NCBI GenBank assembly: GCA_905620445.1
Contig: CAJQTP010000046.1
Location: 1 to 35,841 of the forward strand
Direction of reading: 5' to 3'
Length of the DNA: 35,841 nucleotides
From: an uncultured Candidatus Thioglobus sp.
GTDB lineage: Bacteria > Pseudomonadota > Gammaproteobacteria > PS1 > Pseudothioglobaceae
Position numbers and translations under genes: made by a program. Below, piece after piece: positions 2,102-17,372 of this stretch; position 1 is the first letter of the stretch, and the number at the start of each line of letters is the position of its first letter. The notes beneath the pieces were generated by a model. It had not been told where the DNA came from. It searched no databases and worked only from the letters and a program-made list of their open reading frames with translations.

Positions 2102-3166
<1,065 letters not shown>

Positions 3167-3178
3167 AGTAAGATTTTA

Positions 3179-3538
3179 CTACTCAGATAAACCAGATTTT
3201 GCCTGATCTGCAATTTTTGCAAAGGCATCTTTATCAAAGATGGCAATATCAGAAAGAACTTTGCGATCAATCTCAACACCAGCTTTGTTTAAGCCATTGA
3301 TAAATTGTGAGTAGCTTAAGCCATTGTTCCTTGCCTCAGCGTTGATACGTACGATCCATAATCTACGGAACTGACGACGACGTTGACGACGGTCACGATA
3401 TGCATACTGTCCAGCTTTAATTACCGCCTGCTTAGCAACGCGATAAACTTTTGAACGAGCACCATAGTAACCTTTGGCTTTCTTTAATATTTTTTTATGT
3501 TTGGCGTGCGCCTGCACACCTCTTGAAACTCTTGCCAT
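3179..3538 (-). CDS. rplT: 50S ribosomal protein L20
   Basis: Large-subunit protein of 119 aa that binds 23S rRNA early in assembly; in E. coli it also represses its own operon. The sequence is full length and highly basic ([16 protein letters not shown] at the N-terminus, [16 protein letters not shown] in the middle). A clear GGAG sits 7 bases before the ATG. It starts 15 bases after rpmI in the standard infC-rpmI-rplT order. Confidence 0.98.
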
Positions 3539-3553
3539 AGTAATACTCCTAGT

Positions 3554-3751
3554 TTAGCTGTACGGTAACATTCTTTTGACCATTGGTACATCAGCCTTCT
3601 CAATGAAGTCTGGTGAACGCAATGAGCGTTTTCTAGAAGTACTCTTCTTGGTCAGAATATGCCTCAAGTGCGAGTGTTTACTTTTGTACTGACCGCTAGC
3701 GGTCTTTTTGAAGCGCTTTGCAGCACCTCTATTTGTCTTTAACTTCGGCAT
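3554..3751 (-). CDS. rpmI: 50S ribosomal protein L35
   Basis: Small basic large-subunit protein, 65 aa ([17 protein letters not shown], then [15 protein letters not shown]). Two ATGs lie in tandem at 3754 and 3751; I choose the second because it gives the conserved MPKLK start and a better spacing (6 bases) from GGAG. The start region lies inside the 3' end of infC in another frame, giving a 23-base overlap, and the Shine-Dalgarno is also infC coding sequence. Translation of rpmI is therefore probably coupled to that of infC. Confidence 0.97.
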
Positions 3752-4331
3752 CATTTACTCCTTCACCCTTTTCGGGTTCAATTTTTCGGGCGGCTGGCGC
3801 CTTACTTTTCTTCGATATGGGTGCTAGCATCATGCCAAGCTGGCGACCCTCCATTTTTGCACGTTGCTCTACAACGGCAAATTCTTCTGTATCCTTTTCA
3901 ATTCTATCTAACATAAGTGCGCCGATCTCTCTATGCTGCACTTCCCTGCCACGGAACCAAATAACGACTTTAACTTTGTCTCCGTTTTCTAAAAATTTTG
4001 TCAAGTTCCTAAACTTGATTTGGTAATCACCTTCCTCAGTTCCTGGACGATACTTAATCATCTTGACTTGAGTTTTTTTCTGTTTCTTCTTAGCGTCATT
4101 CTTTTGTTTCTTTAATTCATATTGAAACTTACCAAAGTCCATAACACGACAAACTGGTGGATCTGCACTTGGTGAAACTTCAACTAAGTCTAAACCGACG
4201 CTTACTGCTAATTCAAGAGCTTCTACGTTACTAAGGACTCCCATTTGCTCACCCTTGTCATTGATGACTCTGAGTGTTGGTGAACTAATTTTTTCGTTAA
4301 TCCTTGTCGTTACCTTGTTTGGTCTTTTAAT
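3729..4331 (-). CDS. infC: Translation initiation factor IF-3 (AUU start)
   Basis: IF3 binds the 30S subunit, checks the start codon and keeps subunits apart. The first ATG in frame (4244) would cut off the conserved N-terminus. Reading back gives [15 protein letters not shown] and [12 protein letters not shown], which align with the N-domain of E. coli IF3, and an ATT at 4331 preceded by GGAG at 4340-4337. An AUU start is the classic infC arrangement through which IF3 limits its own synthesis. A second ATT directly upstream (4334) is possible but lies too close to GGAG. The protein is 200 aa; after the usual end (RQLGMMLAP) there is a tail of about 28 charged residues. The gene begins 2 bases after the thrS stop and overlaps rpmI by 23 bases. 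Confidence 0.95.
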
Positions 4332-4333
4332 AA

Positions 4334-6226
4334 TTACTCCTGATTTATTAATTCAATCAACGCCTCTATAGACATTGAACCTAGATCCTCTCCACCCCTT
4401 CGGCGAACAGAGACTTGGTTATTTTCTACTTCTCGATCACCAACAACTAAAATATAAGGATAGCGTTGCATCGAGTGCTCGCGTATTTTAAAGCCTATCT
4501 TCTCATTACGCAAGTCAGAAATGACCCTAAGTCCTTGTTTTTTTAGATTCTTCTCTACTTTTTTGCTAAATTCTTCTTGTTTTTCAGAAATATTAAGAAT
4601 AACCGCTTGAATTGGAGCAAGCCATGATGGAAACGCTCCTTCGTAATGTTCGATCAAAATTCCTGTAAATCTCTCGATTGATCCAACGATTACTCGGTGA
4701 AGCATTACGGGTGTTTGTTTGGAGCCATCTTCAGCAATATACTGCGCATCAAGCCTGCCCGGCATGGAAAAGTCAGCCTGTATTGTTCCGCATTGCCATT
4801 CACGATCTAGGCAGTCCTTTAAAACAAACTCAACCTTAGGGCCGTAAAAGGCGCCTTCACCCTCCTGAAGTTCCCAGTTAATTCCTTTTGCATCTAAGGC
4901 TTCAGACAAAGAAGCTTCAGCCTTATCCCAATCCTCGTCCGAACCAACTCGCTTTTCGGGTCTGGTAGAGAGCTTAATATCAATGTTTTCAAAACCAAAA
5001 TGCTTGTAGACTTGAAACGTAAGGTCTATAAATTTAGAAACTTCGTCTTGAATTTGATCGATTGTGCAAAAAATATGAGCGTCATCCTGAACAAAATTTC
5101 GAACCCTCATAATTCCGTGAAGCGTTCCAGAAGGCTCGTTACGGTGACACGACCCAAACTCAGCTAAGCGCAACGGTAAATCTCGATAAGACTTAAGTCC
5201 CTGCTTATAAATCTGAACATGGCCAGGGCAGTTCATCGGCTTAATCGCGTAGTCACGGTTCTCTGAATGCGTGGTAAACATAGCGTCGCCAAACTTATCC
5301 CAGTGGCCTGACTTTTCCCACATTGACCTATCCATCACCTCAGGGGTGTGGACCTCGTGGTAGTCATTATCTTTAAAAACTTGGCTCATATACTGGACAA
5401 TTATTTGATAAAGCGTCCATCCCTTAGGGTGCCAAAAAATCATTCCTGGAGACTCTTCCTGGGTATGGAAAAGGTTCTGAGTCTTACCAATCTTCCTGTG
5501 GTCTCTTTTCTCAGCCTCTTCCAAGCGATGCAAATGGGTCTGAAGGTCCTCCTTATTTTCCCAAGCAGTACCGTAAACCCTTTGAAGCATTTCATTATTT
5601 GAGTCACCGCGCCAATAAGCGCCAGCCAGCTTCATTAACTTAAACGCTTTAAGCTTACTGGTTGAAGGTACATGGGGACCACGACACAGGTCTACAAAGT
5701 CACCCTGCTTGTATAGCGATAAAGCCTCGTTAGAAGGAATCGACTCAATAATCTCTGCCTTGTAATGCTCGCCCTTTGATTTAAAAAATTTAACCGCCTC
5801 TTCACGGCTCATCTCCAATCTCTCGATCGGTAAATTCTGCTTAACAATGGCGTTCATCTTTTTTTCAATCTTTGCAAGATCTTGCTCTGAAAAACCATCT
5901 TTATAAGCGAAGTCATAATAAAAACCATTATCAATGACAGGGCCAATAGTTACCTGGGCCTTTGGATAGAGTTGTTGGGTAGCTTGCGCTAATAGGTGGG
6001 CAGTAGAATGACGAATAACTTCAAGCGCCCTCTCGTCTTTATTGGTAATAATAGCAAGAGCTGCGTCACCCTCAATCATGTAAGACGTGTCAACTATTTG
6101 ACCGTCAATCTCACCAGCAATAGCAGCCTTTGCAAGGCCAGATCCAATCGATGAGGCTACTTCTGCAACCGTTAATGCCTGGTCATAAGATTTAACTGTG
6201 CCGTCAGGCAGTGTTACATTTGGCAT
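4334..6226 (-). CDS. thrS: Threonine-tRNA ligase
   Basis: Charges tRNA-Thr; 630 aa against 642 in E. coli. In order: an N-terminal TGS domain (about 1-62), the editing domain with the HSTAH zinc-like site (H73, H77), the class II core with the zinc ligand cysteine in MNCPGH (about residue 332), [13 protein letters not shown], and a C-terminal anticodon-binding domain ending in [10 protein letters not shown]. No Shine-Dalgarno is clear at the ATG. It is the first gene of the thrS-infC-rpmI-rplT-pheS-pheT string, and its last codons carry the ribosome site of infC. Confidence 0.98.
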
Positions 6227-6294
6227 ATCACAAGATTAAAAACAAAAAATCCATTTTACCTTGATAGCGCACTTATCTTGGTCAAAAATTGAGA

Positions 6295-6327
6295 CTTTAA
6301 AGAACTTTTAAATGAACCTTTTAAAGG
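6295..6327 (+). repeat. Three tandem CTTT(T)AAA units before the MFS gene
   Basis: CTTTAAAGAA, CTTTTAAATGAA and CCTTTTAAAGG follow each other at 6295, 6305 and 6317. The last is a perfect palindrome that abuts a -10-like TATATT at 6328-6333. The spacing of about 11-12 bases (one helical turn) would suit an operator, but AT-rich sequence also makes such patterns by chance. Confidence 0.35.
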
Positions 6328-6341
6328 TATATTAACACCCT

Positions 6342-7514
6342 ATGAAAATCGCTCGTAAATCACCCGAACTATTAATCCTTCTAATGACTGTTGGTTCTGC
6401 TATAAGCTGGGCTGTGTGGCTTAACCTGCTTAATAATTTTGCAATTGATGAGATCGACTTTACGGGCGCAGAAATGGGAATCCTTCAAAGCCTAAGAGAA
6501 GTTCCTGGATTTTTAGCCTTTACGGTCATCTTTGTTTTGGCTTTTATTCGAGAGCAGAAGTTGGCGTACATATCTCTCGCGCTTCTTGGTGGCGGAGTAA
6601 TATTGACGGGTTTCGTTGAAACCAATATGACCTTTTATTTGGCAACAATAGTCATGTCTATTGGCTTTCATTACTTTGAAACCATTAATGGCTCATTAAC
6701 GCTTCAGTGGATTGAAAAAGATAAAACAGCAGAGTTTTTAGGGCGAGTTATTGCTACCCGATCAGCCGCATCAATCATTGCATTTAGCCTTGTTTGGGTC
6801 CTTTTTGAGCAATTTCAAGTCGCATACATGTGGCTTTATTTGATTGGTGGCGGCGTCTCTATTGCGGTCGTATTATTTTGTTGGCAGCACTTTTCGCTGT
6901 TCCCAGAAAAAGTCGTTCAGACTAAAAAAATTATTTTAAGAAAGCGCTACTGGCTCTACTATGCGCTTCAATTCATGAGCGGCGCAAGAAGGCAAATATT
7001 TGTGGTTTTTGCGGGCTTCTTGATGGTTGAAAAATTTGACTTCACGGTCGCTGAAATATCACTCTTACTGCTTGCAAATGCTGCGGTAAATATAGTTGTC
7101 GCCCCTAAAATAGGACGGCTTATTCACAAATTTGGTGAGCGCAAAGCGCTCATATTTGAGTATGTTGGGCTCACCTTTATCTTTGCTGGATACGCGTTTG
7201 TAGAGAGCAGTTACCTTGCAGTTTTCTTGTACATTGCAGACCACCTATTCTTCTCAATTGCAATCGCCCTCAAGACGTACTTTCAAAAAATTGCGGATCC
7301 CGCTGACATAGCTTCTAGCGCAGGAGTCTCCTTTACAATTAATCACATTGCAGCGGTCTTTATTCCGGTTGCTTTTGGTTTGATTTGGCTTTACTCGCCT
7401 TCATTAGTTTTCTTGGCAGGCGCTGGAATGGCAGTCATCTCACTTCTTCTTGCTTTTAATATGCCAGCCAGCCCTTCTGCTGGAAACGAAGTCTTGTTGG
7501 GTAAATTTGCTTAA
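6342..7514 (+). CDS. Major facilitator superfamily transporter, substrate unknown
   Basis: A 390-aa integral membrane protein with about 12 hydrophobic segments split into two halves by a basic central loop (around residues 195-205, KKIILRKRYW). The size and layout fit MFS; I see no signature that identifies a substrate. The C-terminal 20 residues are polar. The gene is divergent from thrS and 33 bases before the secreted lyase-like gene, so the two may share a function, although that gene also has its own -10 element. A candidate operator repeat lies just upstream. Ribosome site weak. Confidence 0.85.
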   Translation: MKIARKSPELLILLMTVGSAISWAVWLNLLNNFAIDEIDFTGAEMGILQSLREVPGFLAFTVIFVLAFIREQKLAYISLALLGGGVILTGFVETNMTFYLATIVMSIGFHYFETINGSLTLQWIEKDKTAEFLGRVIATRSAASIIAFSLVWVLFEQFQVAYMWLYLIGGGVSIAVVLFCWQHFSLFPEKVVQTKKIILRKRYWLYYALQFMSGARRQIFVVFAGFLMVEKFDFTVAEISLLLLANAAVNIVVAPKIGRLIHKFGERKALIFEYVGLTFIFAGYAFVESSYLAVFLYIADHLFFSIAIALKTYFQKIADPADIASSAGVSFTINHIAAVFIPVAFGLIWLYSPSLVFLAGAGMAVISLLLAFNMPASPSAGNEVLLGKFA

Positions 7515-7531
7515 AATAATATAGACCATGG

Positions 7532-7540
7532 TGATATACT
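7532..7540 (+). promoter_or_regulatory. Extended -10 promoter, likely leaderless start
   Basis: TG-A-TATACT at 7532-7540 is a good extended -10 element. Only 7 bases separate it from the ATG at 7548, so transcription would begin at or next to the start codon. No Shine-Dalgarno precedes the gene, which agrees with a leaderless mRNA. Confidence 0.5.
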
Positions 7541-7547
7541 TTTCACT

Positions 7548-9878
7548 ATGAAAAAACTACTCCTACTTTTAATTCTTTCCTTCTTCTCAGCTCAAAGTCT
7601 TGCGGGTTCTTGCCCTGATGGTAGTGAGCCAGTAAAGAGTATTTCTGATGACGGCACTTATTTTGTATTCAACTGTGGCGGTGGTAATGAACAATCATCT
7701 TCATCTACTAATACTGGCAGCTGGAATGACTCAGGTCCATTAGACGAGTTGACAATTCCCGATAACTGGCAATTATTTAAATATAAAAAGACCCTAAGTG
7801 AGGCTCGCAAGAATTTTGAGGCTCTTAGTTTTACAGGATTTGGATTTGGCACTCATAGGTACATCAAAGATACTTGTATAGGTGTTCTCAAAGATTGGGG
7901 TCAATCAATGAAAGTCTACAATTCCATTAAAAAAGAGCTTGATGAAGCTACTAAATTTGGAGGTGAAGGAGCGGAGTCTAAGGATTTGCAGGGCTGTATC
8001 GATAGATTTATATACTCAACACAAAGTTCTACTGGAACCCCAGACTACATGAAAGAAATCCTTCTTCATTGGGCAAAGACTAATGCGGTTTTTATTCCTA
8101 GCGGAGTTAACGATGAAAACTGGAGTAATTATGTCTATGAGGCAGTTCAATCTTGGTCTTCTTTTGGCAGTTATTACGCGACTTTCTATGATGAATTTAA
8201 CTACAGCGATTCTGAGAGAAAGATTGTTGATGCGTATATAAAGGATAAACTTCTAAACCTCGATACCCGAAATCTAGTGTCATCCGCTCACGGTTCAGCT
8301 TGTGACCCTGATAATCTTAATAGAACTGTAGAGGGGGGGATTCAAGGAAAAATTGACCATAATAGTTGTGGCAGCTCTGTCTGGAAGACCACACTCGCTC
8401 AGCTTTTAGTTGGCCTGAGGTTAAACAATGAGGCTCTTTTTAAGAAGGGCGTAGAGAATACTAAATACCAGCTCAGCTTTTTTGATGATAGCGGAATCTT
8501 TACAACTTGGGCTCTAAAGGGTGCTAACGCTTATCACTACAGTAGCAGCGTCCCAATTATGCTGGGCGGACTCACTGAAATCTATGCCAGCGTTGGCTAT
8601 GACTTTATGGAGCACAAACTCCGCAATGGTCTGAGCGTCAAAGAGCTAATGGACAGGCAGTATGAAATCTTGCTTGACCCACATATCTTAGATGGCTATG
8701 TTAAAAGGTACCCATTAGCCTACAGGGGAGTGCCAAACTCAGTGTATATTCAGTCCTCAGCAGAGCAAATAAGAAAGGAAATTGGTATGAATTTGTTTGC
8801 TTTTGTCAGGAATCTGCCGAGATACGTTGATACTTACCGAGCTGATATTGGCAACAGTCAAGAGTTTGATAAAAAACTAGCAAGTCAACCTCAAGAAATT
8901 CGGGGAGATGTTCCGTGGATGTCTTTAGGAGCCTTCCAGCCACTTGACCCCTATTTAGTCTACATATCAGACATCAAAGAGCCAGAATCAAAGACTAAAG
9001 TCGCATCAGAGTTATCCATTTTTGAAGTTGAGGGTGATACCTTCAACTTAGCACTAGATAAAGTAGAGTTTGTTGAAACTGGCTCCTTTAAATTAGAACG
9101 TGAAGAAGAAGGGTATCTTAAGCCTTTTCAACTGCATAAAGGCCATATAAATGGTTACTTAAAAACAAAAAGTAACTGGAGCAAAAATATTGAAACCCTA
9201 GTCTATAAGCATGATAGTGTCCAAGAGCAAAAACTTGTAATCCATACAAATAGCCCAACAATAAAACCCTTAACACGGCATAGTGATTCTCTTCAGAAGA
9301 AATGTGGGTCGAAAGTAATGGAATGGGGATGGCTAAGTTTTATCAGCAAGACCAACGACATCAAGAGTGCTAGGAATCAACAATGTATATACGACTACTT
9401 TAAAGAAGCTAATGATAGAGAGGCTTTGGAATTATTCCAAGCAGTCTTAGGGGGTACGGACTCTATATTAGATTACTTGCAAACAAGTCCTGAAGAGCGA
9501 CGAATTAAAGTTGCGACCAAAGAAGAGGAAAAGCGAATTCCAGCAGACTTAGAACTACCCATTTTTGATGACGTTGAACATAAGCTAGAAGGGCAAATTC
9601 TAAAAATCAATATATTCAGCCCTAAAATGAAACCTTTAATGCGGCATTTAGCCTCTCTTCAGAGGAAATGCGGGGGGGCTTTTATAACTGGAAAAAGGTG
9701 GAATTGGCTTAGTTTTGTTAGTAGTGACTCCGATAATATTAGGAATTCTAACAACCAACAATGTCATTATGATTATTACAAATCTTCTAATGATAATGAG
9801 GCTTTTGAGTTATTTAAAGCTGTCCTAAGTGGTACTGATTCAATATTGGATTATCTTAAAGCAGAAGTTATTGAATAA
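7548..9878 (+). CDS. Secreted alginate-lyase-like protein with C-terminal repeat modules
   Basis: A 776-aa protein with a clear Sec signal peptide (MKKLLLLLILSFFSAQSLA, cut after about residue 19). A short Cys-bearing stretch (CPDGSEP ... FNCGGG) and a Ser/Thr/Asn-rich linker follow. Residues of about 90-430 are helical and resemble alginate lyase/heparinase-type alpha/alpha toroids, mainly ATKFGG-DHNSCGSSVW (about 270) and GIFTTWALKGANAYHYSSS (about 315-333), where such lyases carry their substrate-binding Asn/His/Tyr. The usual NNHxYW motif is changed, so activity is uncertain. From about residue 484 comes a region shared with the protein at 14345, including two copies (about 563-646 and 684-772) of a module with motifs RHxxSxQxKCG, NQQCxYDY and GTDSILDYL. 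The final VIE codons lie in recJ-derived DNA. Lyase assignment moderate; module function unknown. Confidence 0.75.
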   Translation: MKKLLLLLILSFFSAQSLAGSCPDGSEPVKSISDDGTYFVFNCGGGNEQSSSSTNTGSWNDSGPLDELTIPDNWQLFKYKKTLSEARKNFEALSFTGFGFGTHRYIKDTCIGVLKDWGQSMKVYNSIKKELDEATKFGGEGAESKDLQGCIDRFIYSTQSSTGTPDYMKEILLHWAKTNAVFIPSGVNDENWSNYVYEAVQSWSSFGSYYATFYDEFNYSDSERKIVDAYIKDKLLNLDTRNLVSSAHGSACDPDNLNRTVEGGIQGKIDHNSCGSSVWKTTLAQLLVGLRLNNEALFKKGVENTKYQLSFFDDSGIFTTWALKGANAYHYSSSVPIMLGGLTEIYASVGYDFMEHKLRNGLSVKELMDRQYEILLDPHILDGYVKRYPLAYRGVPNSVYIQSSAEQIRKEIGMNLFAFVRNLPRYVDTYRADIGNSQEFDKKLASQPQEIRGDVPWMSLGAFQPLDPYLVYISDIKEPESKTKVASELSIFEVEGDTFNLALDKVEFVETGSFKLEREEEGYLKPFQLHKGHINGYLKTKSNWSKNIETLVYKHDSVQEQKLVIHTNSPTIKPLTRHSDSLQKKCGSKVMEWGWLSFISKTNDIKSARNQQCIYDYFKEANDREALELFQAVLGGTDSILDYLQTSPEERRIKVATKEEEKRIPADLELPIFDDVEHKLEGQILKINIFSPKMKPLMRHLASLQRKCGGAFITGKRWNWLSFVSSDSDNIRNSNNQQCHYDYYKSSNDNEAFELFKAVLSGTDSILDYLKAEVIE
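9235..9486 (+). repeat. Copy 1 of a novel ~85-residue coding module
   Basis: Encodes residues of about 563-646 of the secreted lyase-like protein. It is closer to the module at 15391-15651 than to copy 2 just downstream; long runs such as TTATTCCAAGCAGTCTT are identical in DNA. The conserved frame is RHSDSLQKKCG, WGWLSF, NQQC, YDYFKEA, ELFQAVLGGTDSILDYLQT. Confidence 0.85.
9600..9863 (+). repeat. Copy 2 of the novel module
   Basis: Encodes residues of about 684-772 of the lyase-like protein with the same landmarks (RHLASLQRKCG, WNWLSF, NQQCHYDY, LFKAVLSGTDSILDYLKAE). It is more diverged than copy 1 and is directly followed by the recJ remnant. Confidence 0.85.
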
Positions 9879-9912
9879 GTATTGACTCAATCATGATCTG
9901 TAAAGACTCATT
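9868..9912 (-). pseudogene. Remnant of the recJ 3' end
   Basis: On the minus strand this reads NESLQIMIESILIQ plus TAA, against NESLQLMIESIAIQ plus TAA at the true recJ end (15678-15722). The DNA matches at 38 of 45 positions; three of the five changed codons are synonymous. The match fades beyond 9912. It overlaps the last codons of the lyase-like gene. This short fragment cannot be functional; it marks a past duplication or insertion beside recJ. Confidence 0.85.
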
Positions 9913-9948
9913 ATATTTGATTACTCTAATTATAAAGAGGAGTGAAAT

Positions 9949-9977
9949 TTGAATTTCGAGTTAAATTAAAATATGAT
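9949..9977 (+). promoter_or_regulatory. Candidate sigma-70 promoter for the AMP ligase
   Basis: TTGAAT, 17 bases, TATGAT. It lies 42 bases before the ATG at 10020, in the 141-base gap after the lyase-like gene. Confidence 0.5.
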
Positions 9978-10019
9978 AACATTCGAATTTTAAAGATGTA
10001 ATCATTCGGAAATACTCCC

Positions 10020-11579
10020 ATGAACAAGGCGCCACTTACTGGACGCGAAGGCCAAAAGATAAACCTCGGTCTGCTCCTTCAAAACTCTGCCAAGCAATAC
10101 GGCTCCAAAACTTTTGTGACCCAAGCTGAAACAGGCGAGCGCTTAACCTATGCTGAATTTAATAAACTAACAAATCATATTGCCCATGGCCTCATTGACC
10201 TCGGCTTTGGTGATGAAGAGTACATCGCCATAATGCTTCCAAGCTGTATTCAGTTTTTAGCTTGCTCCTACGCACTTAAAAAAATCGGCGTGATCGAAGT
10301 GGCTATTAATAGTAATGCGCGCGGCCCCTCCCTTGCGCGCATGATTGACATGACAAAGTGCAAAATACTGATTACTTCTGGGAAGCATTTGCAGCAGTTA
10401 TCTGAGGTTTCTGAAAGCCTAAAGCACTTACAGCAAGTTATCATGATCGATAAGCAACAGAGGGCTAAAGAGCTACTTCAAAGTTTTAATATATTGCCGT
10501 GGCAGTCACTTCTTGCTCAGTCCAGCTCAAATTTTTCTTGTGACTTTAGTGACGAAGAAACAGCTGTAATTCTTTTTACTTCAGGAACTACGGGCGTATC
10601 AAAAGGTTGTGATATTCCTCACAGATCCTCAGTTCGAGCTGCAGAGTCGATCATAGAGGCATTCAGTATTACTGAGCAAGATTGTGTCTACAGCCCATAC
10701 CCTTTGTATCATGTAGGGGCAACACAGTACGACATATTGCCAGCTATGATGGTTGGCGGCCGAGTGGTTATTCGTCAGGGCTTTAGCCTATCTAATTTTT
10801 GGAGTGATGTTTGCCGCTATAAGGCAACATGGTTTATGTCGATGGGCTCTGTTCAGCAGTTGCTTTGGTCAGCAGAGCCGTGCATTGAAGAAACGCAGCA
10901 TAGTTTGCGCTTTATATGGGGAACCCCTTTGCCTGTTGACCATGACGATTTTGAATCTCGCTTTCAGCTTAAACTAGCCCGAGGCACTGGATATGGCTCT
11001 ACCGAAGCTGGCGGCGTAGCGCTTCCGCTTTTTGATAAGAGCGGGGCTGGCAAGGTTCTGGATCGTTATAAAGTAGCTATTGTAGGTGCAAACGACAATG
11101 AACTCCCTATAGGAGAATCTGGCGAGCTTGTGATTCGCCCACTTGAGCCCGCTATTATGGCATCCAAATATATTGGCATGCCTGAGGAGACAGCCAAGGC
11201 TTGGCGAAACTCATGGTTCCACTCAGGAGATTTTGCTAAATTGGATGACGAAGGCAACCTTTATTGGCTAGCACGCATGTCAGAAAGGATCCGAGTGAAA
11301 GGAGAAATGGTTTCAGCTTACGAAATTGAAGAGAGCATATTTACTCACCCTTCTGTGACTGATTGCGCAGTAATTGGTATCCCAGATGGAGCTGGAGAAG
11401 AGCAAGTTAAGGCGTTTATAACGCTTAAAGAAAATAAGACACTGACCCTGGAAGAATTACGTTTATTCTGCGCTCCTATTATTAGTCGTTTTATGAACCC
11501 TACATCACTTGAAGTACTTCAAGAAATGCCGCGAACCCAAACAGGTAAGCCCGCCAAAGCAGAACTCCAAAAAAAGTAG
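10020..11579 (+). CDS. AMP-dependent acyl-CoA synthetase/ligase
   Basis: A 519-aa member of the ANL adenylating superfamily, which activates a carboxylate with ATP and usually passes it to CoA. Visible motifs: the P-loop FTSGTTGVSKGCDIPH (about residue 186), YGSTEAGG (about 324), the hinge and ribose-binding WFHSGDFAKLDDEGNLYW, ARMSERIRVKGEMVSAYEIE, and the C-terminal lysine motif TQTGKPAKAEL (about 508). Overall it most resembles CaiC-type (crotonobetaine/carnitine-CoA ligase) and medium/long-chain acyl-CoA ligases, but the substrate cannot be read from sequence. No acyl-CoA dehydrogenase or CoA transferase is adjacent. No Shine-Dalgarno is clear at the ATG. Confidence 0.88.
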   Translation: MNKAPLTGREGQKINLGLLLQNSAKQYGSKTFVTQAETGERLTYAEFNKLTNHIAHGLIDLGFGDEEYIAIMLPSCIQFLACSYALKKIGVIEVAINSNARGPSLARMIDMTKCKILITSGKHLQQLSEVSESLKHLQQVIMIDKQQRAKELLQSFNILPWQSLLAQSSSNFSCDFSDEETAVILFTSGTTGVSKGCDIPHRSSVRAAESIIEAFSITEQDCVYSPYPLYHVGATQYDILPAMMVGGRVVIRQGFSLSNFWSDVCRYKATWFMSMGSVQQLLWSAEPCIEETQHSLRFIWGTPLPVDHDDFESRFQLKLARGTGYGSTEAGGVALPLFDKSGAGKVLDRYKVAIVGANDNELPIGESGELVIRPLEPAIMASKYIGMPEETAKAWRNSWFHSGDFAKLDDEGNLYWLARMSERIRVKGEMVSAYEIEESIFTHPSVTDCAVIGIPDGAGEEQVKAFITLKENKTLTLEELRLFCAPIISRFMNPTSLEVLQEMPRTQTGKPAKAELQKK

Positions 11580-11618
11580 TAGATTAGTCTTCATTAATAT
11601 CTAATAAAGAAACCCCTC

Positions 11619-11647
11619 TTTCAATAAAAACTATGGATCAATATAGT
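11619..11647 (+). promoter_or_regulatory. Candidate promoter for the DUF1800/DUF1501 pair
   Basis: TTTCAA, 17 bases, TATAGT, ending 45 bases before the ATG at 11693. The -35 is a poor match, so confidence is limited. Confidence 0.4.
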
Positions 11648-11692
11648 ATGTATACTTTATTTAAAAGTATGGTTAATTTTAAATAACACTAC

Positions 11693-13159
11693 ATGAACGA
11701 AAACTTTCGAATTGCCCAAAAACTTGGACTCATGTTTCGACCAGAAGAAACATTGCCCCAAGACATTAAAGGATGGGCAATTAAGCAGCTCCACGCACCC
11801 TCCCCTTCCCTTGGTATTGGTAATGTTGGATCTGACGTTAAGCCCTGGCCAAAAATATTCCAACCAAGCCTAGATCAGAAGGCAGTAAAACTAAGAATCC
11901 ACTGGGAAACAATCAAAAGAGAGAGAAAGAAAAAAGGCGGCTACACTGAGAGCGCACAGCGTGCAAATGATAGGGACAACTTAATGTATGAAAAAGACAT
12001 TCTTAGATTCTCACATCGCAATGTCTATGGCTCTGACCAGCTTCGCCTTCGTCTTATGTCGTTCTGGGCAAACCACTTTACAATAGGTAGTTTTGATTCT
12101 AGGGAGGTAATTGGGCATGCAATGGAGGAGGCAATATTAGCAAATTTTAATGACTCGTTTTCAACCATGCTATACAAGGTCACCACGCATCCAGGAATGT
12201 TGAGCTACCTGGATAACCATATTAGTGCCGGACCCAATTCAAATCAAGTTAGGTGGGCCAAAGCAAACGGAGAGCAGGCTGGTCTGAATGACAACCTTGG
12301 AAGAGAGCTACTAGAACTTCATACCGTTTCACCAAGCGCAAACTATACTGAGACCGACATTAGAAATGCAGCAAAGGTTCTAGCTGGTTGGGGCATTGAC
12401 ATTAAAGGTAACCCTTTGAGTTCTTTAATGGATCAAGGTGGGACCACTAACCTTTGGGACATGTATAAAAGGAATTGGGCCGAGCCAGGCAATAAGATGG
12501 TCCTTGGAAAAACGATAGGTACAGGAAAAGGCGGCCTCAAACAGTTGACAGATTTTCTGGCCGCTCATGAGCATACGGTAATGCACCTCTCAACAAAGTT
12601 AGCCGAGCATTTTGTTAGCGATGTTCCCAATAAAACGGATGTCAATTACATTGCAAGTGCCTGGAGACAGAGCAATGGCAACCTAGACCAAATCCATACA
12701 GCAGTTATAGAAAGAGCTATTGCATCGAAGGAGCCAAAATTTCAGTTGCCGATGACTTGGCTTTTTCAAGTTTTAAGGCTGAGCAATGCCACATACTTTA
12801 TGGGCTGGAATGAGATTAATACTTCAAATAATAGCTTGAAGTTTAATATGCAGCCTATGCAAATATTTGATGAGCTAGGACAAAATTTATGGGCAGAAAG
12901 ACAACCCAATGGTTACTCAAGTAAAAAAGAGGAGTGGATGTCTGGCGAAATGTTTGAGCGGCGAATTAGGTTTGCTGACTCTATTTGGACTTCGGATAGC
13001 CAAATACAATCAACAAGTGTCATTATGGATCGAATTGGAGCAAGTAAAGAGACACGGAAGCTAGTTGAGAGTCTTCATGGAATGTCTTCAAGGTCTAAAA
13101 AGAATCAATTTATTGCACTAATGTGTAGCCCTGAACTCATGGGACTTGAAAATGCCTAA
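11693..13159 (+). CDS. DUF1800 family protein
   Basis: A 488-aa protein with the family's landmarks: LRLMSFWANHF (where wild types usually read W-x-NHF), NLGRELLELHTVSPSANYTETD (about residue 201) and VLAGWGI. Family function is unknown; members are typically encoded beside DUF1501 proteins and are usually exported. Here the N-terminus (MNENFRIAQKLGLMFRPEE) has no hydrophobic signal, and an in-frame stop lies four codons upstream of the ATG, so no longer form exists. It overlaps the Tat-signal DUF1501 gene by 8 bases, so the two are translated together and may leave the cell as a complex. No Shine-Dalgarno. Confidence 0.88.
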   Translation: MNENFRIAQKLGLMFRPEETLPQDIKGWAIKQLHAPSPSLGIGNVGSDVKPWPKIFQPSLDQKAVKLRIHWETIKRERKKKGGYTESAQRANDRDNLMYEKDILRFSHRNVYGSDQLRLRLMSFWANHFTIGSFDSREVIGHAMEEAILANFNDSFSTMLYKVTTHPGMLSYLDNHISAGPNSNQVRWAKANGEQAGLNDNLGRELLELHTVSPSANYTETDIRNAAKVLAGWGIDIKGNPLSSLMDQGGTTNLWDMYKRNWAEPGNKMVLGKTIGTGKGGLKQLTDFLAAHEHTVMHLSTKLAEHFVSDVPNKTDVNYIASAWRQSNGNLDQIHTAVIERAIASKEPKFQLPMTWLFQVLRLSNATYFMGWNEINTSNNSLKFNMQPMQIFDELGQNLWAERQPNGYSSKKEEWMSGEMFERRIRFADSIWTSDSQIQSTSVIMDRIGASKETRKLVESLHGMSSRSKKNQFIALMCSPELMGLENA

Positions 13160-14303
13160 CTATAAATTAACAAGAAGAGATTTTTTAAAGGCCTCTGGAG
13201 CATCTCTGTTCTTAGCAGGTATTCCACTTCAAGGATTTACTCAAGACAAGCCGCCCGGGAAAATCTCGGTCATTATTCTTGAAGGCGGCATGGATGGGTT
13301 AAGTGCTGTTCCAGCCTTTGGTGACCCAAATTTTGAAAAGATGAGAGGCATACTTGTCCCTGAAAATTATTTAAAACTGAATTCATTTTTTGGCCTTCAC
13401 CCCTCTCTCAAAAATCTTTCCTCCTTAATGGCATCCAATAACGCCTCAATTGTTCATGCAACCTCATTTCCGTATAAAAAAAGATCACACTTTGAAGGTC
13501 AGAATTTAATTCAAGGAGGCGGCTTGACTCCGTTTTCTGAAAAGACAGGCTGGCTTGGACGCTCTTTGGAGCTTGCAAAGATTCCAGGTAGAGCCCTTTC
13601 ACTAGAAATGCCGCTGATACTTAGAGGGTATGGTGAAAACGATAATTTTTTTCCAGCAAAAATTAACAATTCTAGCAAAATAAATATTAATTTAGTTGAA
13701 AAACTGACTGCGGCGCATGGAAAGGTGGGAAGTGATGTATTTGAAAAAGTTAAGCAAAAAAGTTTACTAACTTTAGAAAATATGCCAAGAGATTCTCAAA
13801 GTTTAGCGGAGTATGCGGGCAAGGCTATGGCAAAAAAAGATGGGCCTACAGCCTCAGTTATAAGGTTGAGTGGATTTGACTCGCACGCTTCTCAAGATGA
13901 CGGGAACGGTAATGACCATGGGATTGATTTAGCAAAAATTGACGGGGTTATTGCCGCTTACAAAAGAGGACTCGGAGGCGCATGGGATAATAGCATTATT
14001 CTTACTATCACTGAGTTTGGAAGGACGGTTGCTGTCAACGGTACAAGGGGAACAGATCATGGGTACGGCTCTGCTGGAATAATTGCAGGTGGCGCAATCT
14101 CTAAATCAAGAGTTATATCTGACTGGCCGGGTCTTGCAAAAAATGAGCAGTATGAGCAGAGGGATTTAATGTCGACAATTGATTACCGATCGGTGTGTGC
14201 TGCCTGCATTGAAAAATCTTTAGGGCTGGATCACGACCTCATTGCAAACAAGGTATTCTTTGAACCAAAACTACCAAGAGTTTTTGACTACCTCTTTTCG
14301 TGA
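13152..14303 (+). CDS. DUF1501 family protein with Tat signal
   Basis: 383 aa from the ATG at 13152 (a TTG at 13146 would add two residues). The N-terminus has a twin-arginine motif, TRRDFLKAS, then a hydrophobic stretch (GASLFLAGIPLQGF). The body shows the sulfatase/alkaline-phosphatase-like pattern of DUF1501: GGMDGLSAVPAFGD near the start, SGFDSHASQDDGNGNDHG, LTITEFGRTVAVNGTRGTDHG (about 284-304) and AGIIAGG. Such proteins are thought to be periplasmic, possibly metal-binding; no enzyme activity is established. It follows the DUF1800 gene with an 8-base overlap. Confidence 0.9.
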   Translation: MPNYKLTRRDFLKASGASLFLAGIPLQGFTQDKPPGKISVIILEGGMDGLSAVPAFGDPNFEKMRGILVPENYLKLNSFFGLHPSLKNLSSLMASNNASIVHATSFPYKKRSHFEGQNLIQGGGLTPFSEKTGWLGRSLELAKIPGRALSLEMPLILRGYGENDNFFPAKINNSSKININLVEKLTAAHGKVGSDVFEKVKQKSLLTLENMPRDSQSLAEYAGKAMAKKDGPTASVIRLSGFDSHASQDDGNGNDHGIDLAKIDGVIAAYKRGLGGAWDNSIILTITEFGRTVAVNGTRGTDHGYGSAGIIAGGAISKSRVISDWPGLAKNEQYEQRDLMSTIDYRSVCAACIEKSLGLDHDLIANKVFFEPKLPRVFDYLFS

Positions 14304-14344
14304 CTCCCAAAGACATTTAAAGAATCTTATATTCATTTAACTAA

Positions 14345-15658
14345 ATGACAACAATCAAAATCCTTACTAGTTTTCTAATACTCAGCTGCATTATTGGTAA
14401 TGTCAATGCTGGGTATCTTGATGACTGGCCAGATGAGGCATTGTGTGGATGGCTTGATGGCGCTTCTCCACCTGAATATATTATTGAGGAAGCCAATAAA
14501 AGAGGTATCAGCTGTCCAGGAGAAGTTGCATCAAAACATTTAATTGAAAATGTGCAGTCGAGTTCTACACCTAACATTGAAATTTATGACATTATATTTA
14601 GTGATGAGATTTTGCAAGAGCTTCTGGAAATATCTCCAGAAGAGAAGGCTTCAGACTTTACTAGAAACTTTAAAAATTATCGCTTAGCCTTCATTCAAGA
14701 TGAAATAATTTGTGGCTTTAACCTCAAACGCGTTGTTTATGAGAACAAAGCCGAAGGGGAGATTGAGGGCTGGGATATGGCCTATGGCTCAATAACTTTT
14801 AAGGGGCTAAATGCTGACTTCAAAGGCGCCTGGTCAAAGAATATGGGAGGACTCTCAAGTGATTCCAGATATTTTAATGATGAAATCAATATAAAGCTTA
14901 CAAAAGATGGGCACCTTGTTGGGAAAATGGCTTATTTCACCCACACTGTAGGTAGCGATGAAGCCCCTAGGAGGCCTTTATTTATTGAACTTGAAAAACA
15001 CTCAAAATCCAAACCATTGAATTATAAAAATATTAATCTTGATAATTCTGCTGAATTCTGGATTGATGTTGAAGATTGGGCAGGCGGCGTATTGAATCTT
15101 TTCCAATGCAAAGATAGAAAAATAGAAAAACAAAAAGAAGAAGCCAAGATAGCAGCTTCTATATTACATATTTTTAAAATTGATAATGAAACGTACAAAT
15201 TAACCTTAAATAAAGCTGAATTCATGGAAACTAAGCCATTTAAATTGGAGCGTTCAGAGGAATATCTAAAGCCCTATCAACTCTTCAAAACAGTTATATT
15301 CGGCAAACTTAAGTCAAAAATTGATGGCAATAAAATGATTGATTTCACTACCTTAGTTTTTAAGCAAGATGATGGCCAGGAGCAAAAACTAGTAATCAAT
15401 TTAGATGACCGGACACTAGAATCTCTTTGGCGTCATAGTGATTCTATTCAACAAAAATGCGGAATGGGTTTAATTGATCAGTGGGGCTGGATGGGTTTTA
15501 TAACTGAAACCAGTGATCTTATGAATGCTAAGAATCAGCAATGTCATTATGATTATTTTAAAGAAGCAAGTGACACGATGGCTTGGGAGTTATTCCAAGC
15601 AGTCTTGGGCGGTACGGATTCTATATTAGATTATCTTCAAACAAATGTGAAGAGATGA
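14345..15658 (+). CDS. Secreted protein with the shared C-terminal module
   Basis: A 437-aa protein with a Sec signal peptide (MTTIKILTSFLILSC ... VNA, about 22 residues). A short segment with two cysteines follows (LCGWLDGASPPEY ... RGISC). The middle (about 75-255) is a unique domain I do not recognise, with one Cys in IICGFN and one in LFQCKD. After a charged linker (KQKEEAK), residues of about 274-437 match the C-terminal part of the lyase-like protein at 7548: FKLERSEEYLKPYQL, then RHSDSIQQKCG, NQQCHYDYFKEA and GTDSILDYLQT. DNA as well as protein similarity is plain, so the two share a recent duplication. It converges on recJ, with 19 bases between stops. Function unknown. Confidence 0.85.
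   Translation: MTTIKILTSFLILSCIIGNVNAGYLDDWPDEALCGWLDGASPPEYIIEEANKRGISCPGEVASKHLIENVQSSSTPNIEIYDIIFSDEILQELLEISPEEKASDFTRNFKNYRLAFIQDEIICGFNLKRVVYENKAEGEIEGWDMAYGSITFKGLNADFKGAWSKNMGGLSSDSRYFNDEINIKLTKDGHLVGKMAYFTHTVGSDEAPRRPLFIELEKHSKSKPLNYKNINLDNSAEFWIDVEDWAGGVLNLFQCKDRKIEKQKEEAKIAASILHIFKIDNETYKLTLNKAEFMETKPFKLERSEEYLKPYQLFKTVIFGKLKSKIDGNKMIDFTTLVFKQDDGQEQKLVINLDDRTLESLWRHSDSIQQKCGMGLIDQWGWMGFITETSDLMNAKNQQCHYDYFKEASDTMAWELFQAVLGGTDSILDYLQTNVKR
15391..15651 (+). repeat. Third copy of the novel module
   Basis: Encodes residues of about 349-435 of the protein at 14345. Closest to the copy at 9235-9486, and like copy 2 it is directly followed by a recJ 3' end (here the real gene). Confidence 0.85.
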
Positions 15659-15659
15659 C

Positions 15660-15700
15660 TTGAGTCAAAAATTTTAGTTACTGAATAGCTATTGACTCAA
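15660..15700. terminator. Inverted repeat between the convergent genes
   Basis: TTGAGTCA at 15660-15667 and TGACTCAA at 15693-15700 form an 8-bp stem with a 25-base loop over the recJ stop. It could serve as a two-way terminator, but there is no strong U tract. Confidence 0.3.
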
Positions 15701-17372
15701 TCATAAGCTGCAAAGATTCATTGCCTCTAAATGAATTAACGTTTAACTTATAAGCAACCTTTACTTGTTTCGTTTCAAGCTTGCCCTGGAAAAAAGCAAT
15801 GCCCTCAAAAATCGAACTAGCGCCAACAAGTTTTAGAGTGCACTTAAGATGCTTTTCACCAACAATTTTTTGCTCTATTAGCTCAAAGTTGCCATAAAAG
15901 ATTGGCTCTTCAAAACCCTGGCCCCATGGGGATGCCTTTCGAAGAAGTTCTGCATTCTTAAGCGTTATTTCTGAAGCCTCTAACTTTCCATCCGTCATTA
16001 GCTCAATGATTGGCTTCTTGCCCTCGAGATGTTTTTTTATTGCCTCTGAAAAAGCATCACTAAACTTCTCAAAGCTCTCTGGCGAAAGTGCCAAGCCGGC
16101 CGCCATCGCGTGACCGCCAAACTTATCAATTAGGCCTGGGTTATCGCGATCAACCAGGTCTAGCAAATCTTTTATGTGCACGTCAGGTATTGAGCGGATT
16201 GAGCCTTTTAATACTTTGCCTGATTTTGCAAAAACAGCGCACGGGCACTGATACGTTTCTTTGAGCTTCCCTGCAACAATGCCAACAATACCTTCATGCC
16301 AGGTCTCGTCATATAAAACGATTGCAAACTGACTCTCATCAATTGACTGACTCTCGACAATGGCTAAAGCCTCATCCTGCATTCGGGTCTGCTCTTCACG
16401 CCTTTTAACATTGAACTCTTCAAGCGTTTGAGCGTACCTTCTTGCGTCATTCATATCTTCAGATAAGAGGCAGCGGATACCCTGTGATATGTCGCTCAGC
16501 CGGCCTGCCGCATTAATTCTAGGAGCCACCGTAAATCCGAGGTCGGATGCTTGCAGCGTTTCGACAGGACGCTTAGTAAGCTCAAGTATCGCTAGAATGC
16601 CTTTTGAGCAGAGTTTTTGACGAATGCGCTTAATTCCCTCATTAACTAGAATGCGATTGTTCTGATCCAGTTTTACGACGTCTGCAACGGTTCCAAGAGC
16701 AACAAGGTCAAGGAGTTCACGAAGATCTGGAACCTGGATGTTGTTCTCTTCAAAATACCCCTTACCAACCAGGTGAGTCTTAAGCGCTGAAAACAGATAA
16801 AAACAAACGCCGACGCCTGCTAAATTTTTAGAGGGAAAGTCACAGCCTCGTAAATTCGGGTTAATTATTGAGTTTGCATCAGGAAGAACTTTAGGAGGTA
16901 GGTGGTGGTCGGTAATGATAACGTCAATGTCAAGTGACCTAGCGAGCGCAGCGCCTTCATTACTGGATATACCATTGTCAACGGTAATAATTAGGTTTGG
17001 ATTTTTATCGGTCTTTGCCTCTTGAACAATTTCTGGGCTTAAGCCGTATCCATGCTTAAATCGGTTTGGAACCAAAAAGTCAACGTGCTTTGCTCCCATT
17101 AACCTAAGAGCCTTTATTGCTACAGCGCTTGCTGTTGCGCCGTCCGCATCAAAGTCTCCAACGATGAGTATGCGCTGGTCTTCAAGAATGCACTTTTCAA
17201 GAAGGTCAAGCGCAATGTTAAGTTGATCAAAGCTTGGCTTAAGGAGGCCTGGAAGCGCCATTGAAAGCTGTGATTCAGAAACGGCTCTTGCCGCATAGAC
17301 CCTCTTAAGAATTACAGGTATATCCTCAGAGTAGGACTCAAACAATGAATTGTCAAGCTCTCTAGTCAGCAC
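15678..17372 (-). CDS. recJ: Single-stranded-DNA-specific exonuclease RecJ
   Basis: 5'-3' exonuclease acting in RecF-pathway recombination and mismatch repair. 564 aa, matching E. coli RecJ along its length. DHH-family motifs are intact: VGDFDADGATAS (about residues 71-82), VDNGISS, TDHHLPP (about 153-159), then the DHHA1 motif KFGGHAMAAGL and the C-terminal OB domain (AYKLNVNSFRGNESLQ). The start is GTG at 17372 and overlaps the end of the DUF1566 gene by 11 bases, without a convincing ribosome site, so translation is probably coupled. A 45-base copy of its 3' end lies at 9868-9912. Confidence 0.96.
   Translation of the reverse strand: MLTRELDNSLFESYSEDIPVILKRVYAARAVSESQLSMALPGLLKPSFDQLNIALDLLEKCILEDQRILIVGDFDADGATASAVAIKALRLMGAKHVDFLVPNRFKHGYGLSPEIVQEAKTDKNPNLIITVDNGISSNEGAALARSLDIDVIITDHHLPPKVLPDANSIINPNLRGCDFPSKNLAGVGVCFYLFSALKTHLVGKGYFEENNIQVPDLRELLDLVALGTVADVVKLDQNNRILVNEGIKRIRQKLCSKGILAILELTKRPVETLQASDLGFTVAPRINAAGRLSDISQGIRCLLSEDMNDARRYAQTLEEFNVKRREEQTRMQDEALAIVESQSIDESQFAIVLYDETWHEGIVGIVAGKLKETYQCPCAVFAKSGKVLKGSIRSIPDVHIKDLLDLVDRDNPGLIDKFGGHAMAAGLALSPESFEKFSDAFSEAIKKHLEGKKPIIELMTDGKLEASEITLKNAELLRKASPWGQGFEEPIFYGNFELIEQKIVGEKHLKCTLKLVGASSIFEGIAFFQGKLETKQVKVAYKLNVNSFRGNESLQLMIESIAIQ

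Follow-up and report, generated by a model that had tools for sequence, protein, structure and literature searches.

How a second 3' end of recJ came to lie some distance from the gene itself, with four other genes in between, is the question raised by a contig of an uncultured Candidatus Thioglobus sp. The DNA analyzed (35,841 nucleotides, hereafter the window) is the complete contig C46 of a 907 kb assembly of 52 contigs, rated 54% complete. We compared 29 genomes of the genus (G000-G028, with G000 being that of the window) along with loci of sister genera.

The assembly encodes one recJ (15678-17372, minus strand; Pfam DHH, DHHA1, and RecJ_OB). An assembly-wide search with a 501-base probe around its true end retrieved a remnant at 9866-9912 (minus strand) with an E value of 1.8e-8. 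The remnant and the window's own recJ 3' end (15676-15722) are identical at 40 of 47 positions without gaps, and the match of 38 in 45 bases at 9868-9912 reported in the initial annotation is part of this alignment. Shuffled windows gave best matches to the tail of 25-28 out of 47 (20 shuffles); together with the E value, this rules out chance similarity. Translated by eye on the minus strand, the remnant reads NESLQIMIESILIQ and then a stop, as had been noted, and the two repeats do stand in direct orientation with the AMP ligase, DUF1800, DUF1501, and P0002 genes between them. The remnant is closer to the recJ end of the related genome G010 (46/47) and to that of G023 (44/47) than to the recJ of its own genome; the difference between G010 and the own copy is 1 versus 7 mismatches in 47 (p 0.06). 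Judged from these alignments, the remnant is a recombination scar.

The gene running into the scar, P0001 (7548-9878, plus strand), is predicted from its translation to encode an exported protein made of a leader found throughout much of the genus, a body related to alginate-lyase-like proteins, and two C-terminal modules. The first module with its preceding segment (9013-9486, plus strand) is 72% identical to the recJ-adjacent gene of G010 and 58% identical, at the amino acid level, to P0002; in the second (9600-9863, plus strand) the last 47 nt match G010 at 44 of 47 positions, and the preceding stretches at 34/47 and below. A copy of the module had been described ahead of each recJ end, and we confirmed it: 9324-9486 and 15482-15644 are 76% identical, a third copy (9702-9864) is 61% identical over 163 nt, and a 113-nt repeat adjoins the module copies with identities of 72% and 62%. 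The longest exact runs common to the repeats are 19, 17, and 15 nt. With such short runs, the suggestion that the block is lost or amplified by homologous recombination between the repeats is weak, and excision as a likely event was rejected, given that the longest exact match is 19 bases and no excision product was seen. The last codons of P0001 had also been described as recJ-derived antisense DNA. The overlap exists (the last three codons and the stop, ending at 9876-9878), but it was not made by the joint: the recJ-adjacent genes of G010 (seen only in part because of a contig break) and G023 likewise terminate in AEVIE-stop and overlap recJ, indicating that the overlap arrived with the tail.

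The body of P0001 is difficult to classify. It has no Pfam match of weight and no lyase match up to an E value of 10, and it falls outside the Pfam family Alginate_lyase (PF05426; curated cut-off 22.2 bits), for which a leader-bearing paralogue in the window's genome (G000 C19) scores 51.2 bits and G024C5_1368 scores 24.9 bits. The P0001 body shares 27% identity over ~275 residues with a paralogue from G028, which in turn clusters with G024C5_1368; this suggests a distant relationship with this alginate-lyase-like paralogue group. No close relative of the body was found in the 29 congeners, none of 6 pattern matches in a wider collection of genome contigs was confirmed, and a PDB sequence search returned no match. 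An AlphaFold model of the body made from the single sequence had a mean pLDDT of 36.

Downstream of the scar, all on the plus strand, are an AMP-binding gene of the acyl-CoA synthetase-like type (10020-11579; AMP-binding E 1.8e-58), which has its own, G010-like upstream region, a DUF1800 gene (11693-13159; E 1.1e-71) whose product is 98% identical to that of G009 and 97% to that of G002, a DUF1501 gene with a TAT-like start (13146-14303; E 6.8e-23), and P0002 (14345-15658). The latter is predicted to encode a second exported protein, without a Pfam match, and is a mosaic with a G009/G002-like 5' part and a 3' part closest to G023. Its N-terminal motif DDWPD...C-W...EA-RG--C (window 14345-14550) is found again in several dozen short proteins predicted from genomes of the genus.

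The genes bordering these cargo genes are thrS (4334-6226, minus strand; Pfam tRNA-synt_2b, TGS, tRNA_SAD, and HGTP_anticodon), which is the left border in sister genera and adjoins recJ in outgroup loci, and an MFS transporter gene (6342-7514, plus strand; MFS_1 E 2.6e-21), which bounds the cargo on the left in this genus. In sister genera, whose recJ is 60-71% identical, recJ and thrS are adjacent, without MFS or cargo, in 16 out of 16 loci carrying both, with a gap of 50-59 bp in 11 of them; 11 further outgroup loci had no thrS within the stretch examined. Within the genus, a single contig spans MFS to recJ in 16 genomes, and the 15 other than the window's were used for synteny; in the remaining 13 genomes, recJ is missing, a contig break interrupts the site, or, in G004, MFS is on a separate contig. 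Ten of the 15 (G003, G006, G009, G012, G014, G018, G019, G021, G025, and G027) have DUF1800, DUF1501, and a secreted gene between MFS and recJ, three (G001, G026, and G028) have MFS directly beside recJ, and a single gene stands between them in G015 (leader/lyase-like) and G020 (P0002-like). The states are stepwise, from recJ-thrS in the outgroup through MFS-recJ and one leader gene to the DUF1800-DUF1501-secreted gene trio. This trio appears to have moved as a unit, since G001 and G020 carry it at another locus with common neighbours. AMP ligase copies with 82-96% identity occur elsewhere in six congeners, and the gene was seen behind MFS only in G010 and the window. The G009 interval from MFS to DUF1800 (L071:7470-8610) contains two short ORFs and, just before DUF1800, the decayed start of a leader (48 bp, 86% identical to window 7541-7588), which we read as another passing cassette. 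No published account of the thrS-recJ site was found among open-licence papers. The thrS-MFS-recJ interval is best read as a gene-exchange site of the genus with alternative exported-protein cassettes.

This distribution bears on the origin first proposed, in which the 5.8-kb block from the AMP ligase through DUF1800 and DUF1501 to P0002 was inserted or copied at recJ, duplicating the recJ end, and could be lost again by recombination. The direct orientation of the repeats around the block agrees with that account, and a tandem duplication would yield exactly the observed joint of recJ tail and spacer. However, the scar is absent from all 10 congeners that have the DUF1800-DUF1501-secreted gene trio at the site, and no remnant occurs between MFS and the next gene in any of 18 relatives (the 15 plus G002, G007, and G010), where the best match in 10 searched spacers was 24/47 and the other 8 spacers do not reach the 47 bp of the probe. 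We rejected an insertion of the block at recJ because relatives carry the block without the scar, and a simple insertion is contradicted, as far as gene order can tell, by synteny; a duplication step may still have taken place, whereas an arrival of the block together with its scar is not supported. The dissimilarity of the remnant to the window's own recJ end and the shortness of the exact repeats also argue against the proposal, which we regard as improbable. Relatives lacking the block, which the initial annotation recommended looking for, do exist (the three with MFS next to recJ), but their sites look unfilled rather than like products of excision.

Comparison with the close relative G010 redefined the inserted piece. 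Contig C39 of G010 aligns to window positions 5501-7507 and 9914-11651 with 32 bp between the two parts, so that MFS is joined to window base 9914 and the AMP ligase follows directly behind MFS, with neither P0001 nor the remnant between them. Relative to G010, the added piece is therefore 7508-9913, comprising P0001 and the recJ tail, and not the block to its right. The window is 95.1% identical to G010 over 9914-11651 (spacer and AMP ligase). To the left of the joint it matches first the G010 recJ end and then the end of the G010 recJ-adjacent gene before similarity declines, and the P0001 lyase-like body was not found in G010. The alignments show that both flanks, 9819-9912 and 9914-11651, are G010-like at the DNA level, and those with G010 contigs C39 and C4 place a non-homologous joint between the recJ tail and the MFS-AMP ligase spacer at 9912-9914, with no clear microhomology and with base 9913 assigned to neither side. 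On either side of the critical interval the G010 sequence is interrupted, with contig ends ~70 bp past the AMP ligase and inside a module; DUF1800 was not found in this incomplete G010 sequence. Assemblies of the closest relatives also break at the module/recJ end (start of G010 C4, start of G023 C38, end of G002 C24, and start of C48), as expected if strains differ at this point.

An artificial origin of the joint at 9912/9914, by chimera formation during assembly or amplification, deserves consideration for an assembly this incomplete and fragmented. The tail, however, differs at 7 of 47 sites from the only recJ of the genome, so it was not derived from that copy; the P0001 frame extends into the tail, where it ends in the manner seen for G010 and G023, and no long repeat exists at the joint. 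We consider a chimera decidedly unlikely. Integrative elements usually leave a duplicated gene 3' end on both sides of their cargo, as is seen here, but an integrative mobile element with the two recJ ends as attachment repeats is highly improbable and was rejected, given that the Pfam scan of ten proteins around the block found no recombinase (the block itself matching only AMP-binding, DUF1800, DUF1501, or nothing relevant), that relatives carry the cargo with no such repeat, and that the P0001 modules are repeated as well, beyond any attachment site.

Signs of homologous exchange are found on both sides of the joint. The 3' end of the MFS gene (7442-7514, plus strand) is identical to G010 at 57 of 73 positions and to G002 at 59 of 73, compared to 89-98% (G010) and 86-97% (G002) per bin upstream of a breakpoint near 7441; G010 and G002 themselves agree at 67 of 73 positions over the same stretch. 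Using counts rounded from bin percentages, the drop corresponds to Fisher p values of about 5e-5 (G010) and 6e-3 (G002), and a direct comparison with the G010-G002 control (16 versus 6 mismatches) gives p 0.036 on 73 bases only. These identities indicate that the MFS 3' end has a different ancestry from the rest of the gene. The adjacent spacer (7515-7552) resembles G003, G007, G014, and G021 with 76-79% identity over 38 bases. On the other side, a tract at 11690-14900 was exchanged with the G009/G002 lineages, as judged by identity to G009 in 500-bp bins: the five bins within 12001-14500 are 97.8-99.4% identical, versus 81-91% between 15.5 and 24 kb, although G009, whose assembly is full of frameshifts, also reaches 94-97% at 3001-4500 (conserved genes) and as much as 94% past 24 kb. 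Within P0002, the resemblance to G009 declines; the 3' part of this gene is closest to G023, and the recJ end at 15733-15800 is identical to G002 at 68 of 68 positions. The DUF1800-DUF1501 tract, 98-99% identical to G009, shows inter-species exchange at the site.

Taken as a whole, the locus is probably the product of two alternative cassette alleles of the thrS-recJ exchange site that were concatenated through the non-homologous joint at 9912/9914. The first allele would have ended in the P0001 modules and the recJ end, the second would comprise the spacer, AMP ligase, DUF1800, DUF1501, P0002, and recJ, and the recJ tail would be the leftover of the first allele's right border. Homologous exchange would have reshaped both sides, affecting the end of MFS and the DUF1800-DUF1501 tract, and the lyase-like body may have been acquired in this way, through exchange within the MFS 3' end and within the last module. 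Two routes to this concatenation can be envisaged. An incoming allele ending in recJ may have been anchored by homology in MFS and joined without homology to the resident allele; alternatively, the interval may have been duplicated in tandem, after which homologous exchange, reaching from MFS to the last module, would have replaced most of the first copy. The ancestry pattern, as reconstructed from the alignments, fits both routes, and we prefer neither. The supposed donor arrangement MFS-P0001-recJ was not found in any genome compared. ComEC and DprA were each detected in only 3 of 29 congeners (G001, G020, and G026), with positive controls in 10/14 and 11/14, and were not found in G000, in its near relatives, or in the single-contig genomes G006 and G028; competence thus appears to have been lost within the genus. 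Since both genes are missing from 26 of the 29 congeners, transformation is an unlikely entry route in this clade, and imported DNA would therefore need another one.

The first 46 residues of P0001 belong to a leader family with a signal peptide and a CPDG-S-DG-Y-C motif. They have 44 strong matches (E < 1e-16) in 17 of 29 congeners; outside the genus, matches came from 2 of the 54 genomes of the family, one of these matches being weak. Among 33 records, 31 were kept (two very short reads were dropped), and the bodies of these 31 leader ORFs (>200 aa) fall into 14 groups under a 50% coverage rule, with C-terminal segments common to several groups. Next to recJ, the P0002 body is preceded by this leader in some cases and by a different, DDWPD-type N-terminus in others. 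A 14-row tree, which left out rows G020, G001o, and G020o, needs 3 changes of N-terminus, 2 of them forced by well-supported branches, and these changes may have been made by recombination at the leader. We tentatively suggest, as a possibility that falls short of being probable, that the site serves as one outlet for a modular shuffling of exported proteins specific to the genus, in which a constant leader precedes unrelated bodies, and recombined enzyme bodies and C-terminal modules stack between thrS and recJ, leaving scars. P0001 would then be a shuffling product of leader, lyase-like body, P0002-type modules, and recJ tail. In the open-licence literature, we found no paper on signal-peptide paralogues in Thioglobus. 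A dispersed intergenic repeat of ~50-60 bp with the core CACACATCAAACGAAATTTGGACTTTAG was also observed, with ~169 matches in 26 of 29 congeners (e.g. L249:2906-2975) and none in the window. It often stands ahead of a promoter-like TTGATATACAAT that immediately precedes a start codon, reaches up to 18 copies per genome, and occurs in arrays and before leader genes as well as many unrelated genes; it may be a REP-like element or a common promoter.

Several known systems resemble parts of this picture. Homology-facilitated illegitimate recombination, described (PMC3240628) for naturally competent species and E. coli conjugation, likewise adds a piece that is homologous at one side, here MFS, and joined without homology at the other, here by fusion of the recJ tail to the MFS-AMP ligase spacer. 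The homologous anchor, however, is a crossover inferred from the change in MFS ancestry near 7441 and thus from 73 bp, competence genes (ComEC/DprA) were not found in G000 or near relatives, and the process is not the sole fit, since an identical joint would result from an internal tandem duplication. Effector-immunity modules of the Vibrio cholerae type VI secretion system (T6SS) stack sequentially, with new modules beside old ones and 3'-end leftovers recording the order of events, for which the authors suggest the same recombination process (PMC5361080); here, the leftover stems from recJ, a housekeeping gene at the border, and the cargo consists of exported enzymes and DUF proteins rather than effector-immunity pairs. 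With replacement flexible genomic islands of aquatic bacteria, as defined in PMC4033161, the site shares the same place and neighbours with differing content, and a near-identical cargo within a divergent background and borders, identity to G009 being lower on the MFS and recJ sides than in the DUF1800-DUF1501 tract. In contrast to those islands, the cargo of ~8.2 kb (MFS stop 7514 to recJ stop 15678) is below the 10 kb of the definition, and the site grows by addition as well as replacement. Transformation-induced merodiploids of Streptococcus pneumoniae (PMC3784515), duplications spanning about 100-900 kb that form through repeats, similarly arise by unequal crossing-over that sets a region and its copy side by side, but no long repeat exists at the joint in the window.

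In summary, the mechanism is a known kind of bacterial gene shuffling, clear but ordinary, and the inserted piece differs from the one first proposed; the bracketed block should not be taken as a recent insertion. The locus offers an example, readable base by base, of two cassette alleles joined at a fixed site in a widespread marine lineage of the SUP05 clade, with no apparent role for an integrase or for competence genes, and its recJ tail is a marker for tracing events of this kind within populations. More unusual as a lead is the possible modular shuffling of exported proteins at the site: if the leader family truly swaps bodies, it would give a handle on exported-protein variation in small-genome marine bacteria.
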